In this document: in pieces, positions 35,408 through 41,367 of the stretch
Layout: the number at the start of each line of letters is the position of its first letter
How positions within the stretch are numbered: position 1 is the first letter of the stretch
NCBI GenBank assembly: GCA_024281175.1
Contig: JAMJTW010000022.1
Location: 1-64,000, forward strand
DNA length: 64,000 nt
From: Candidatus Thiovulum imperiosus
GTDB taxonomy: Bacteria; Campylobacterota; Campylobacteria; Campylobacterales; Thiovulaceae
Direction: 5' to 3'
Position numbers and translations under genes: made by a program
Notes under the pieces: generated by a model
Seen by the model: only the letters and a program-made list of their open reading frames with translations
Told to the model about the DNA's origin: nothing
Database searches by the model: none

Positions 35408-37243
35408 ATGAGGTATCTAATTTTAGTTTTCCTGCTTTTTGCAGGATGTGGAGAAGTTCCAAAGCCAGAAGTTTCAGGAGAGAGAAATCTTGAGAAAGAG
35501 AAGAAGCGAATTCTTACAAAGCCTACAAGTGATGAAATTCCAGAAGAGTTTCAAACTGAAAAGCGACTTGCTCTTGTAATTGGAAATGATGAGTATGAGA
35601 ATTTTACAAATCTCGATAATGCTCAAAATGATGCTAGGGATATAGGGAAAACTCTTGAGAAATTGGACTTTGAGGTCTTTCGAGTTTTCAACGGAAATCA
35701 GAAAGAGATGGGAAATAAGATAGTTTCATTTGGAAATCTTTTGAAGCAAAACGGTGGTGTTGGTCTTATCTTTTATGCTGGTCACGGTTTAGAGACTGCT
35801 GGGCAAAACTATCTTGTTCCAGTTGATGCAAATATTACAAGTGAAATTCAGATAAGTATGAATGCGATTTCTTTAGAAAGTGTTTTAAAAGTTTTGGAGG
35901 GTGCGGAAAATCGTCTAAATATCGTAATTCTTGATGCCTGTCGAAATGACCCAACCTCATCTTTCCGAAGTCTTCAAAACGGTGGGCTTGTCGCTCCTCC
36001 AACGGCATCAGGAACTTACATCGCATATTCTGCTGATGTTGGTCAAGTTGCTGAAGATGGTAGTTGGAAAAATGGAACTTTCACAAAACACCTTTTAGCT
36101 ACTCTAAAATTTGAGGGTGTGAAACTGAATGATGTTTTTAAAAATGTGAGACTGGAAGTTGAGGAGGAGACAGACGGAAAACAGAGTCCCGCAAGTTATG
36201 ATAAAACTACGGGCGATTTCTATTTCCGACTTCCAAGTAGCACCCAAACCGTCACCTCGAGCGAAACTGTCATTTCGAGCGAAACTAAGATTTCTCCTGA
36301 TGGTCGAAATGACAATACTCCAGAAGTGATTTCAATTGGAGAGAACAAAATCGGAACAAGCAGTGTTGTTTTTGAAGAGAGAAGCAAATTCTCTTTAGGG
36401 ATTTCCACTTCTCCAGCAGATGCAATTGTGAAAGTAAATGGAAAGAGTTTTAAAAGTGGTTCTCTTTTGGAGAGAGGAAAGTATCAGATTTCTATTTCTA
36501 AAAGAGGGTATGAAACCTACAAGTACAATTTGGAACTTCAGAAAGATGAGGTTTTGGATTTCACTCTTCAGAAAACCCATTTTAAACTTAAAATCGATGT
36601 TACAAATGTTTATCCAGAGGGAGTCGTTTTCGACTTTGAAAATGTGAACTTCACAAATGGAATGAAACTTAAAAGAGGAAAATATAAATTCAAAGTTTCA
36701 AAAAGAGGTTTTCACTCAAAAGAGGGCAAAATCGACTTACAGAATGATATGACTTTGAAGATGACTCTTGAGAAGATTTCTGTTCCAAAACCGAAAGTCG
36801 TTGAAACTCCAAAACCAAAAGTTGTTACTTTAAGCAGAAAAGGAGAGTGGGACAAAAGAATTTATCGAGGAGAGCGGAGCTATTCCAAATTTTCAACAAA
36901 TCTTGTAAAAGATAATTTCACAAATCTTGTTTGGCAAAAGAGTGGTAGCTCAAATTTTATGAATTGGGAAAGTGCAAAAAAGTATTGTGAAAATCTCTCT
37001 CTTGATGGATATTCAGATTTTCGACTTCCAACTGTAAAAGAACTCTACTACTTAGCTGATAGAAGTAAATATGACCCAGCAGTAGATAGTAACTATTTCA
37101 ATTTAAAAAGTAACTGGTATTGGTCGATAACAAAATATCACAATAGTAGTTCCTATCCGTGGATTGTCTATTTCTTGTATGGTGATGACAATTGGAATAA
37201 CCAGACTAACGACAATTTCGCGGTCTGTGTCCTCGACTTATGA
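35408..37243 (+). CDS. Caspase-like PEGA lipoprotein with DGR-variable DUF1566 domain (DGR target 1)
   Basis: 611 residues from ATG 35408 (AGGAG six bases upstream; a GTG two codons earlier is less likely). The lipobox is LLFAGC, with Gly after the Cys, predicting outer-membrane anchoring. Residues about 55-280: caspase/peptidase C14 domain with the catalytic His in YAGHG (about 125) and Cys in LDACRND (about 177). A Ser/Thr linker follows (about 280-320). Two PEGA repeats (about 325-385, 390-450). Residues about 480-611: a DUF1566/Lcl-type domain (LPTVKELYYL) ending in the variable repeat VR1, whose last codons read AVCVLDL. This is the usual place for a DGR variable region. It should be a surface or periplasmic protease-like receptor with a diversifiable tip; activity and ligand are unknown. 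Confidence 0.88.
   Translation: MRYLILVFLLFAGCGEVPKPEVSGERNLEKEKKRILTKPTSDEIPEEFQTEKRLALVIGNDEYENFTNLDNAQNDARDIGKTLEKLDFEVFRVFNGNQKEMGNKIVSFGNLLKQNGGVGLIFYAGHGLETAGQNYLVPVDANITSEIQISMNAISLESVLKVLEGAENRLNIVILDACRNDPTSSFRSLQNGGLVAPPTASGTYIAYSADVGQVAEDGSWKNGTFTKHLLATLKFEGVKLNDVFKNVRLEVEEETDGKQSPASYDKTTGDFYFRLPSSTQTVTSSETVISSETKISPDGRNDNTPEVISIGENKIGTSSVVFEERSKFSLGISTSPADAIVKVNGKSFKSGSLLERGKYQISISKRGYETYKYNLELQKDEVLDFTLQKTHFKLKIDVTNVYPEGVVFDFENVNFTNGMKLKRGKYKFKVSKRGFHSKEGKIDLQNDMTLKMTLEKISVPKPKVVETPKPKVVTLSRKGEWDKRIYRGERSYSKFSTNLVKDNFTNLVWQKSGSSNFMNWESAKKYCENLSLDGYSDFRLPTVKELYYLADRSKYDPAVDSNYFNLKSNWYWSITKYHNSSSYPWIVYFLYGDDNWNNQTNDNFAVCVLDL
36269..36313. repeat. REP-like inverted repeat inside the caspase-like gene
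   Basis: GTCATTTCGA (36269-36278) and TCGAAATGAC (36304-36313) are a perfect 10-bp inverted repeat around AAGATTTCTC, the same core as in the intergenic elements. GTCACCTCGAGCGAAAC precedes it. It encodes the Ser/Thr-rich linker between the protease and PEGA domains. Confidence 0.7.
37149..37243 (+). repeat. DGR variable repeat VR1
   Basis: It aligns without gaps to the TR at 37843-37937. Differences in the first 84 positions: six at template A (positions 6, 21, 27, 28, 30 and 36) and one T-to-C (position 9). From position 37 to 88 it is identical to TR, so the last mutagenic event seems to have changed only the 5' part. It ends at the gene's stop codon. Confidence 0.92.
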
Positions 37244-37320
37244 TTTTTTGTTTTTAATAATTTTTCATAAAACCAACCAATTTATTCCAGCTCACTTTCG
37301 GGGCTGGTCTTTCACTCTTT
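37244..37320 (+). promoter_or_regulatory. Conserved hairpin segment downstream of VR1
   Basis: About 77 bp (TTTTTTGTTTTTAATAATTT..., then hairpin CCAGCTCA/GGGGCTGG at 37287-37307) recur almost unchanged after VR2 (39682-39758). Nothing comparable follows the TR. In known DGRs a hairpin or cruciform just past the variable repeat promotes retrohoming. It may also serve as a terminator. Confidence 0.65.
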
Positions 37321-37367: not shown

Positions 37368-37727
37368 TTGCAAAATAATTATGAAAATTTACCAATTTTT
37401 CGGGAGGCATTAAAACTGAATCTCTATCTTGAAGATGCAGTTAGAAACTTTCCAAAATATGAGAAGTATGGAATTGGCTTTGAATTACGAGAAAATGCCC
37501 GAGAGATTCTCTATTCCATCTCATTTGTCTATTTGGAAAAAGAGAATCTAGCTGAAAATATTCAAATCGTGAGAAAAGAGATAGAGAAGATGAAAACAAA
37601 AATCTATTTAGCAAAAGAGCTAAAGGCTCTCCGAGACTTCAAACAGTTTGAACTTCTCTCAAAAATGGCTTACAACTTGGGACTTCAAGCTGGAGGTTGG
37701 TATAATGCAAATCGCCAGAATTCTTAA
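37368..37727 (+). CDS. avd: Avd-like four-helix-bundle protein of the DGR
   Basis: 119 residues from a TTG start (GGAG eight bases upstream). Entirely helical in pattern and basic toward the C-terminus (KELKALRDFKQFELLSKM, then AYNLGLQAGGW). This resembles the bAvd/23S-intervening four-helix-bundle family, the accessory protein that binds the reverse transcriptase and template RNA. The position target-avd-TR-RT is the same as in the Bordetella phage element. The DNA just downstream of avd is expected to be part of the template RNA. Confidence 0.82.
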   Translation: MQNNYENLPIFREALKLNLYLEDAVRNFPKYEKYGIGFELRENAREILYSISFVYLEKENLAENIQIVRKEIEKMKTKIYLAKELKALRDFKQFELLSKMAYNLGLQAGGWYNANRQNS

Positions 37728-37842: not shown

Positions 37843-37938
37843 GTTCCAATTCGTGGATTGTCAATTTCAAGAATGGTAATGACAATTGGAATAACCAGAC
37901 TAACGACAATTTCGCGGTCTGTGTCCTCGATATATGAT
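37843..37938 (+). repeat. DGR template repeat (TR)
   Basis: Non-coding 96 bp whose virtual translation is S-N-S-W-I-V-N-F-K-N-G-N-D-N-W-N-N and so on, with nine AAY codons and one AAG, the typical template design in which A-to-N changes hit codon positions 1 and 2. Both VRs align over its full length. The 3' end differs at CTCGATATATGA versus CTCGACTTATGA in the VRs, probably the IMH*/IMH distinction. Its end merges with the ATG of the reverse transcriptase (37934). Confidence 0.93.
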
Positions 37939-38989
37939 ACTCTCTTTTGAAGAACTCTATCGGGCTTATAAGAGTTGTCAAAAAAGTAAAGCCAACTCAA
38001 TTAGTGCGATAGAGTTTGAGGTAAACCTCATCGACAATCTTTGGAAACTTCATTATGAAATCAATTCCAAAACCTACACTCCAAGTAGATACATCTCCTT
38101 TCTTGCCAACTCTCCAAAAATGAGAGAGATTTTTGCTCCAAGTTTTCGAGACCGAGTAGTTCATCATCTTCTTGTCAATGATTTAGAGCCTATTTTTGAA
38201 CCAACTTTCATCTATGAAAGCTACTCTTGTAGAAAAGGGAAAGGAATTCACACCGCCGTAAAAAGAGTTCAGAAATTTGCTAGAAGAGAGAGAAACCGAT
38301 ACTACCTCCAACTCGATATAAGAAATTTCTTTCTCTCTATCAAAAAGAGATTTCTCTATGAACTTCTGGAAGATGAGATTTCTCGAAAAGTTTCTGATGA
38401 AATCTTAAAAGAGAGAACTCTATATCTCTCAAAAGAGACCATTTTTACAGACCCAACAGAGAACTATCTTTTTAAGGGAAGCCGAAAAGGATACAAGGAT
38501 TTGCCAAAACATAAATCTCTTTTCTACACCTCAAAAGAGAGAGGTTTGCCAATTGGAAATCTAACTTCCCAATTTTTTGGAAATGTCTATTTAAATCCAT
38601 TAGACCAGTATGTGAAGAGAGTTCTGAAAGGGGATTATGTTCGCTATGTCGATGATTTTATACTTTTTGGAAGTAGCAAAGAGGAGTTGGAAGAGAAGAA
38701 GAGGAGTATAGAGTTTGTGGTGGAAAATAATTTGGGTTTAAAACTTAAAGAGCAGTTTCGACTTCGCAAAGTTGAAAGCGGAATAGATTTTCTTGGATAT
38801 ATAACTTTTCCAACTCATATTTTGGTTCGGAAGAGAGTTGTAAATAACTTTAAGTATAAATTGGCTAAATTTATAGAGAGTGAAAAGAGTGGCGATGAGG
38901 TTCGGAAGTGGATAGAGCAGAAAGCCTCCTATTTTGGACACTTTAAACATGCGGATAGCTATCGATTACAAAAGAAGTATTGGAAATGA
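37934..38989 (+). CDS. DGR reverse transcriptase
   Basis: 351 residues. RT motifs in order: YLQLDIRNFFLSI (motif with the first catalytic Asp), GLPIGNLTSQFFGNVYLNPLD (the [LIV]GxxxSQ motif specific to DGR-type enzymes), RYVDDFILFG with YVDD near residue 237-240, and LGLKLKEQF/IDFLGY of the thumb-proximal region. No maturase or integrase domain is present, and its size is usual for DGR RTs. It copies the TR RNA with errors at adenines and writes the product into VR1 and VR2. The ATG lies at the end of the TR. Confidence 0.93.
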   Translation: MILSFEELYRAYKSCQKSKANSISAIEFEVNLIDNLWKLHYEINSKTYTPSRYISFLANSPKMREIFAPSFRDRVVHHLLVNDLEPIFEPTFIYESYSCRKGKGIHTAVKRVQKFARRERNRYYLQLDIRNFFLSIKKRFLYELLEDEISRKVSDEILKERTLYLSKETIFTDPTENYLFKGSRKGYKDLPKHKSLFYTSKERGLPIGNLTSQFFGNVYLNPLDQYVKRVLKGDYVRYVDDFILFGSSKEELEEKKRSIEFVVENNLGLKLKEQFRLRKVESGIDFLGYITFPTHILVRKRVVNNFKYKLAKFIESEKSGDEVRKWIEQKASYFGHFKHADSYRLQKKYWK

Positions 38990-39157: not shown

Positions 39158-39268
39158 ATGGATTGGAATAGTTTTGCTGAAGCACTATTTCCGATTGGGA
39201 TTTTAATTGCAGGTCTATTGACCTATTTTGCTCATAAAAAGAACTGGAAAATTGTGGAGTGGTTTTAA
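39158..39268 (+). CDS. 36-residue single-span membrane peptide coupled to DGR target 2
   Basis: ATG 39158 after GGAAAGGA. It encodes MDWNSFAEALF, a hydrophobic span (PIGILIAGLLTYFA) and a basic-aromatic tail (HKKNWKIVEWF). Its TAA overlaps the ATG of the next gene (TAATG), so translation is coupled. No family is known to me. A chaperone, anchor or export partner for the variable protein is possible. Confidence 0.65.
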   Translation: MDWNSFAEALFPIGILIAGLLTYFAHKKNWKIVEWF

Positions 39269-39681
39269 TGAAGAAAATTGTAATTTTGGCTCTTTTCTCT
39301 CTACCTCTTTTTGGAGAGAGATTTGAGATTGTTGGAGATACGATAAAAGATTTTGAGACAGGTCTTTTATGGCAGAGAGAGAGTAGCAGTAATACTATGA
39401 ACTGGAGTAGTGCAGTCTCATACTGTAAAAATCTAAACTTAGCTGGATACTCAAATTGGAGACTTCCACATATTGACGAACTGAAATCGATAGTAAATTA
39501 TGGTGCTTACAATCCAGCCACTTTTAATGGTTTTAAACTAAAAACAACGGATTGGCATTGGAGTTCAACAAAACATAACAAATATAGTTCCGATTCGTGG
39601 ATTGTCTATTTCAAGGATGGTGGTGACGATTGGGGTTACCAGACTAGCGACGATTTCGCGGTCTGTGTCCGTGACTTATGA
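39268..39681 (+). CDS. Small secreted DUF1566 protein, DGR target 2
   Basis: 137 residues from ATG 39268 (a GTG three codons earlier is unlikely). Signal peptide: KKIVILALFSLPLFG. The rest is one DUF1566/Lcl-type domain: FETGLLWQRES, NWSSAVSYCKNL, SNWRLPHIDEL and WHWSSTKH, ending in VR2 with AVCVRDL. It matches the C-terminal domain of the caspase-like lipoprotein, and the pair of Cys (SYCKN and AVCV) is conserved in both. It should be a free or membrane-associated diversified binding domain. Confidence 0.85.
   Translation: MKKIVILALFSLPLFGERFEIVGDTIKDFETGLLWQRESSSNTMNWSSAVSYCKNLNLAGYSNWRLPHIDELKSIVNYGAYNPATFNGFKLKTTDWHWSSTKHNKYSSDSWIVYFKDGGDDWGYQTSDDFAVCVRDL
39587..39681 (+). repeat. DGR variable repeat VR2
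   Basis: Gapless match to the TR. In positions 1-84 all 11 differences are at template adenines (6, 21, 30, 36, 37, 42, 48, 49, 51, 61, 66; nine A-to-G, two A-to-T). Past position 84 two non-A changes occur in the presumed IMH (CTC to CGT), plus the CT/TA difference shared with VR1. Confidence 0.93.
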
Positions 39682-39758
39682 TTTTTTGTTTTTAATAATT
39701 TTTCATAAAATAGACCAATTTATTCCAGCCCCATTTCGGGGCTGGTCTTTCACTCTTT
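39682..39758 (+). promoter_or_regulatory. Conserved hairpin segment downstream of VR2
   Basis: Near-identical to 37244-37320. Here the stem is perfect: CCAGCCCC (39725-39732), loop ATTTC, GGGGCTGG (39738-39745), followed by TCTTTC. Its retention after both variable repeats but not after TR points to a role in targeting. Confidence 0.65.
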
Positions 39759-40553: not shown

Positions 40554-40674
40554 AAGTATTAAATATCCAATATGCCTTTTAAGGTTTTGTTAATAAACAT
40601 TTCTATAAGATAAAATATAAAGAGTGAGAGCTACCAACTACGCACTCTTTAGTTATTTTCTCAAAAGGAAAACT

Positions 40675-41367
40675 GTGTCGATTATACCAAATATTATAGA
40701 GATGATTGATGATGAACCTCGCGTATCTCATGTTGATATTGCAAAATATACTGACAATAAAATCAAGTCTGTTCAAGATTTAATTACCCGAAATATCGAA
40801 GATTTTAAAGAGTTTGGACACCTCGCGATTTTAAATCGTGGGGAGGTAAATGGAGGAAAAGGCGAACAGCCAAAAGCCTATTTTCTTAATGAACCTCAAG
40901 CAACTCTACTCATGACATATTTGCGAAATAGTGAAGTTGTAAGAAATTTTAAAAAAGAACTTGTTAAACAATTCTTTAAAATGCGAAATGAGTTACAAAA
41001 CCTTTCAGAAATTCCAAACTTTTCAGAACTCCTTTCCAAAAACGAAGAAGCTCTAAAACTCGTGGAACTTTTTGAGGAAACCAAACCTTTTCGCCTTTTG
41101 CTTCTCCAAAAGCTCTTAGGTGAGAAAAGTATCTCTTCTCTTTTTGGTATAGACTTTTCCCAAACCTACTTTCTTCCAACAGAACTTGGAAAGTTACATG
41201 GACTTTCAGGAAGAGAGACAAATCTAAAACTAGAGGCTTTAGGCTTTCAAGTTTCCGAAAACTCCATTTGGAAACTTACCGAAAGTGGAAAAGACTTCGG
41301 AATAGAAGTTTCTGGAAAGTTTTCCCAACTCAAATGGAAACTAGAAACACCTCTATTTGTTATTTAG
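40675..41367 (+). CDS. Rha-family phage regulatory-like protein
   Basis: 230 residues from GTG 40675 (AAAGGA four bases upstream); a GTG at 40624 would add 17 residues without support. The N-terminal half has RVSHVDIAKYTDNKIKSVQ, PKAYFLNEPQATLLMTYLRN and NFKKELVKQFFKMRNEL, the pRha layout. The C-terminal half is Leu-rich and may be an ANT-like or helical domain. Rha proteins interfere with phage growth in some prophages. No other phage structural genes are near, so it is a remnant or a domesticated gene. Confidence 0.78.
   Translation: MSIIPNIIEMIDDEPRVSHVDIAKYTDNKIKSVQDLITRNIEDFKEFGHLAILNRGEVNGGKGEQPKAYFLNEPQATLLMTYLRNSEVVRNFKKELVKQFFKMRNELQNLSEIPNFSELLSKNEEALKLVELFEETKPFRLLLLQKLLGEKSISSLFGIDFSQTYFLPTELGKLHGLSGRETNLKLEALGFQVSENSIWKLTESGKDFGIEVSGKFSQLKWKLETPLFVI

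Follow-up and report, generated by a model that had tools for sequence, protein, structure and literature searches.

A diversity-generating retroelement in Candidatus Thiovulum imperiosus with dispersed caspase-like targets, a possible repertoire of envelope sensors

Proteins in which the variable tip made by a diversity-generating retroelement (DGR) is joined to an effector have been described as sensors (PMC10907252, PMC7517822), and the role of DGR-diversified cellular proteins is an open question (PMC10907252). Here we describe a DGR cassette from the genome of Candidatus Thiovulum imperiosus (G000; contigs are given as C-numbers), located in a window of 64,000 nucleotides, the whole stretch analysed, on contig C22. 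Its first gene, target 1, encodes a caspase-like lipoprotein with a variable tip and has relatives on several other contigs. The orthocaspase-CLec targets of cyanobacteria (Vallota-Eastman 2020, PMC7517822) are similar in that a C14-type protease lies N-terminal to a DGR-diversified C-type lectin and in having paralogs and remote targets. They are mostly predicted to be cytosolic, in agreement with the remark in the original prediction for this locus that caspase-DGR links are usually cytoplasmic, whereas here lipoprotein and transmembrane forms, a PEGA stalk and a DUF1566 tip are found in Campylobacterales. The DGR antigen sensors of multicellular bacteria (Dore 2024, PMC10907252) also join or link a variable lectin-fold domain to death-type effectors, in several compartments, but they have NACHT/STAND or MoxR-vWA hubs and cassette-linked targets, whereas no such hubs were seen around this cassette and one template matches targets on five contigs.

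Treponema denticola TvpA-type targets are likewise lipoproteins, with several remote targets per template (PMC4891356); no protease domain appears to have been described in them, whereas target 1 has one. Caspase homologs fused to a C-type-lectin-fold domain are also known as C14-FGE-sulfatase proteins (33 of 671 sequences in Asplund-Samuelsson 2012, PMC3501461), in a survey that did not extend to DGRs. Likeness to the paracaspase MALT1, a cytosolic animal signalling protein, is confined to the protease domain. In a literature search of partial coverage, no earlier description turned up of one template with a family of exported or membrane-spanning caspase targets spread over several contigs; DGRs appeared with orthocaspase or metacaspase only in PMC7517822 and PMC8195603, and none with peptidase C14. 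Caspase-DGR and lipoprotein-DGR links are each already known; the dispersed family of exported and membrane-spanning caspases appears to be a new form of such links.

The cassette consists, in order, of target 1, an Avd-like gene, the template repeat (TR), the reverse transcriptase (RT) and target 2 (Table 1). In the variable repeat (VR) of target 1, differences from TR occurred at 7 of 29 template A sites and at 2 of 67 other sites (p=0.003), and the near-identity to TR across the 3' half of VR1 suggests a recent event. Searching the genome with TR yielded six VRs, two on C22 and one each on C30, C5, C31 and C36, each at the 3' end of an Lcl_C domain. Five form the last part of C14-Lcl_C genes, on five contigs (C22, C5, C30, C31 and C36), and the sixth ends the exported, tip-only target 2. 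When the six VRs were pooled, 57 of 150 template A sites differed, compared with 17 of 336 others (p=4e-19). Differences at sites other than A numbered 3 in VR2, 3 in the C5 repeat, 5 in C30, 10 in C31 and 9 in C36, so that the C31 and C36 repeats look older. The variable TR codons are mostly AAC or AAT, from which no stop can be reached by changes at A, and one codon only (AAG) can give a stop. The Avd-like gene has the position and size of Avd and matches at 38% the Avd-like gene of a DGR on G015:C182, in a genome from another family of the order; the nearest relatives of the RT, at 45-50% identity, belong to cassettes that have A-specific TR/VR pairs (Campylobacterales, Patescibacteria and others). 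In our own repeat-pair scan, which scored mismatches at template A lightly, 71 of the 80 nearest RT loci had a candidate A-specific pair, a few of them weak. Judged by its Avd-like gene, template, RT and second target, the cassette appears to be a complete DGR, and the link between retroelement and targets is well beyond chance.

Table 1. Positions in the window of the cassette, the domains of target 1 and an adjacent gene
Feature	Position	Strand	Description	Evidence
Target 1	35408..37243	+	lipoprotein signal, paracaspase-type C14, PEGA x2, Lcl_C tip; 611 aa; ATG at 35408, TGA at 37243	Pfam, PDB sequence and fold search, sequence
Lipoprotein signal	35408..35449	+	MRYLILVFLLFAG followed by C; lipobox LLFAGC, Cys14, Gly at +2	sequence; common to paralogs C5, C25
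Peptidase_C14 domain	35561..36223	+	His126 (codon 35783-35785), Cys178 (codon 35939-35941), Asp176	Pfam, PDB sequence, fold, alignment
Two PEGA repeats	36395..36769	+	probable stalk	Pfam, two stretches; model beta-rich there
Lcl_C (DUF1566) tip	36902..37231	+	C-type-lectin fold	Pfam; model's best PDB match 8q4e
Variable repeat VR1	37149..37244	+	91% to TR; 7 A-site and 2 other differences	
Avd-like accessory gene	37368..37727	+		NCBIfam DivGenRetAVD 6e-7, Pfam bAvd 8e-5, both below cut-off
Template repeat TR	37843..37938	+	28 A in 93-base coding frame; about 1e16 possible protein variants	
DGR reverse transcriptase	37934..38989	+	351 aa; YVDD, IGNLTSQ	Pfam RVT_1 1e-18
Target 2	39268..39681	+	signal peptide and Lcl_C only	Pfam 1.5e-28; hydrophobic N-terminus
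Variable repeat VR2	39587..39682	+	12 A-site and 3 other differences from TR	
Rha-family gene	40624..41367	+	beside the cassette	

The target 1 reading frame is preceded by the ribosome site AAAAAAGGAG. Residues 52-272 were recognised as Peptidase_C14 (Pfam, E 5e-34); MALT1 paracaspase chains were the closest solved sequences to this domain (PDB sequence search, E 5e-18), and MALT1 also came first in the fold search with the caspase core (E 2e-12). His126 stands within YAGHG and Cys178 within LDACR, with Asp176 retained two residues before the Cys. Among 11 aligned C14 domains the His was invariant and the dyad was complete in 10, the exception being C31, where the Cys is replaced by Ser. On these searches, the domain is a paracaspase-like C14 peptidase with a caspase fold, and its motif and nearest homologs suggest that it may cleave after basic residues. 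Residues 499-608 form an Lcl_C domain (the renamed DUF1566; Pfam, E 7e-24). The nearest PDB entry to the tip model was the C-terminal domain of Legionella Lcl (8q4e; E 0.003, TM about 0.5), for a model of fair quality (mean pLDDT 75), and the full-length model (pTM 0.40) was too weak to give the domain packing. Pfam and the sequence bear out the chain of lipobox, caspase-type protease, two PEGA repeats and DUF1566 tip given in the original prediction, including the intact His/Cys pair; its N-terminal C14 peptidase was confirmed by profile, PDB sequence and fold searches, and the proposed DGR diversification of the tip accords with the A-site excess in VR1 and in the six pooled VRs.

The N-terminus of target 1, MRYLILVFLLFAGC, matches the PROSITE lipoprotein pattern, a lipobox with its invariant Cys after a short signal, so the lipoprotein export signal that had been read in LLFAGC is present; this call was made by pattern match. 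Phe at lipobox position -3 is uncommon in general, but further lipoproteins of this genome have it too (FFIGC, LFVGC and LFISC). Lipoproteins face the periplasm by default, and LdtA of Legionella is reportedly also a lipoprotein target of a DGR. The Gly at +2 suggests an outer-membrane location for target 1, by the E. coli rule only. The signal block recurs in the paralogs on C5 and C25 and, less 1 base, in that on C36. For target 1 and the C5 protein, which both have lipoprotein signals, the protease is predicted to lie outside the cytoplasm as well, lipid-anchored and, in target 1, accompanied by the PEGA repeats. In the C30 and C31 proteins the caspase stands at the very N-terminus, and a hydrophobic stretch of 19 residues, flanked by basic residues towards the caspase, comes ahead of the tip; a cytosolic caspase joined by one transmembrane helix to an outside tip is predicted for both. 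All intact tips of this genome would thus lie outside the cytoplasm, with the caspase on either side of the membrane.

The genome contained 13 C14 and 34 Lcl_C matches in total. Two caspase-Lcl_C lipoprotein genes lie on C25 (28983-29633 and 42400-43050) in opposite orientation and about 13 kb apart; their 449-aa open frames were identical in all that was compared, and their tips are unmatched by TR. Further caspase-Lcl_C paralogs also carry tips that TR no longer matches.

In a sister species of the same genus (G001), 13 tips related to the VR family of target 1 were found. Ten of these were compared with TR; variation fell at the TR Asn/Lys codons and the scaffold SW(I/V)VxFxxGxDxWxxQTxxxFAVCV was kept, apart from small departures, for example at the Ile and Asp codons of positions 5 and 21. 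The A-site excess against the G000 template was weaker (105 of 250 sites vs 133 of 560, p=3e-7), as expected if G001 used a template of its own. Neither template nor RT was found in the G001 draft, which may be an assembly gap. The carriers of these tips included a caspase lipoprotein (C89), signal-peptide caspases (C6 and C45) and a non-caspase lipoprotein (C29). At one locus (L209:2054-4144, G001:C40), the DGR-type Lcl_C variable tip is attached to a UvrD-type helicase. At another (L240:1497-3051, G001:C25), a short membrane protein, MotA/ExbB-like by eye, is encoded directly upstream of a coiled-coil protein with a variable tip, and this pair resembles a split ZorA-like arrangement.

Outside the genus, a separate DGR on G015:C145 (L103) has a caspase-PEGA-FGE-sulfatase target with 20 A and 0 other differences; its N-terminus, at the contig edge, looks like the signal peptides of paralogs. 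Elsewhere in G015 there are several caspase paralogs that carry the same signal peptide. In an uncultured proteobacterium (L135), the DGR target combines signal peptide, caspase, PKD and Lcl_C domains (16 A and 0 other differences), and no other of the 80 nearest RT loci had a caspase target. Across the loci compared, the exported caspase-lectin DGR architecture is rare but recurrent. Metacaspases are nearly absent from Epsilonproteobacteria (0.01 per 1000 proteins; PMC3501461). Of the 299 genomes searched in the order, 29 had any C14 domain, and at least nine were seen only in G000, G001 and G015, in a count that scored up to nine per genome (the search of the present genome gave 13).

We regard it as about evenly balanced whether these genes form a DGR-run repertoire of envelope sensors with a protease output. 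The chromosomal DGR would maintain the repertoire, A-targeted mutagenic retrohoming altering the ligand-binding face of the tips. A tip would bind its ligand, which may be an invader or a surface or envelope molecule of a neighbour; binding would cluster the proteins, clustering would activate the caspase domains, and the activated caspases would cut substrates after basic residues, and the outcome would be a response of the envelope or death of the cell. The likeliest use of such a repertoire would be against invaders. More tentatively, we propose that one template randomises the outer tips of dispersed caspase receptors, either lipid-anchored with the protease outside or membrane-spanning with the caspase inside, giving a repertoire renewable by hypermutation that turns envelope recognition into caspase proteolysis. 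A protease that would be fired by a sensor, as in the original prediction, is still the best reading; what that prediction, made from one locus, missed was that one template serves at least five dispersed caspase targets, among them membrane-spanning forms with a predicted cytosolic caspase, and that the sister species has non-caspase targets predicted to be cytosolic.

Three other explanations were weighed against the sensor repertoire. The proteins could be diversified adhesins whose tips bind surfaces or neighbour cells and whose exported caspase cuts back or frees the adhesin or its partner without signalling. We consider this unlikely, although the Legionella adhesin Lcl has Lcl_C as its C-terminal domain (8q4e), the exported target 2 is a tip alone, related tips end large exported proteins (L124 and G015:C182) and a lipoprotein with PKD and cadherin-like domains (L127), and Treponema DGR targets are mostly lipoproteins (PMC4891356). 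Adhesion leaves unexplained the membrane-linked cytosolic caspases of C30 and C31, the cytosolic non-caspase targets of G001 and the repeated joining to caspases. The membrane-spanning forms argue both against a pure adhesin and against a tip that merely presents substrates. This second possibility, in which the DGR redirects the protease to various foreign or envelope proteins and no switch activates it, has protease and variable binder within one polypeptide in its favour and was put forward for cyanobacterial DGR kinases (PMC7517822); however, tip and protease of the C30 and C31 proteins are predicted to lie on opposite sides of the membrane, so that a tip-bound protein would not be the substrate there, and we find such substrate selection improbable. 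The 3' Lcl_C tip might also be a promiscuous module moved among paralogs by recombination, the caspase link being a mark of descent within one expanded family, with no part in sensing for the protease. Consistent with this are the C25 and other paralogs whose tips have left TR behind, a promoter-signal block common to the caspase paralogs at the DNA level, the G001 tips on unrelated proteins (a UvrD helicase among them) and the damage in C31 and C36; but the dyad is kept in nearly all compared domains, and caspase targets recur with two other RTs and with a different lectin subtype, FGE, which makes this account, too, rather improbable.

Several observations weigh against the sensor repertoire itself. 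The membrane-spanning caspase-Lcl_C protein of C31 (L055:5174-6466) is the one without the catalytic Cys, and the C36 gene (L056:6900-8417) is one base short in its lipoprotein signal compared with the paralogs, which places its start out of frame with the caspase. Topology was predicted from hydropathy alone, and no NACHT, MoxR or vWA partner was seen among the open reading frames (ORFs) of 28-46 kb, read by eye, with remote loci left unsearched. Several G001 tips are on proteins without caspase, signal or transmembrane segment (coiled-coil proteins and the UvrD helicase), so a tip can do without a caspase and without export; some of these frames are cut off by contig ends, and an N-terminal signal may lie beyond. 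From these carriers, the tip module in the genus is not restricted to caspases, nor probably to the envelope, which suggests a general recognition module with the caspase as one output among several.

A phage or plasmid origin of the cassette was rejected: target 1 had no phage match, its best plasmid matches covered the caspase domain only (about 41%), and phage RTs were about 36% identical to the cassette RT, compared with 45-50% for chromosomal DGRs. The closest RT in the genome collection (50%) belongs to a Candidatus Gracilibacteria metagenome-assembled genome with two DUF1566-type targets (L123), reflecting either horizontal transfer or mis-binning. The other RVT_1 match in the present genome, a 475-aa RT on C10 (L066:3018-4445), is not DGR-like by eye and is perhaps a defence RT; a second DGR was rejected, as this sole further match had no target ORF in its neighbourhood. 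Like the Rha-family gene next to the cassette, Bro-N/Rha-type genes recur beside caspase and VR loci on C30, C31, C36, C25, C8 and C14 of G000 and on several G001 contigs. Nine of 26 Bro-N matches lay within 4 kb of a C14 domain, against 1.2 expected, with a p of 4e-6 that is optimistic since some loci are clustered or duplicated. Copies of a repeated element, TTTCTCACCCTAAAGGGTTCGAAA, cluster just downstream of the cassette (39078, 40163, 40270 and 41402).

In this family the diversified tip is joined to a well-defined enzyme that is simple to assay, and members differ by nature in their tip, their placement at the membrane and the state of their protease, with Cys-to-Ser and signal-broken forms among them. 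The sensor-effector hypothesis can thereby be put to a direct test. If the hypothesis is true, caspase-type receptors would be under programmed hypermutation in a lineage in which caspase homologs are rare.
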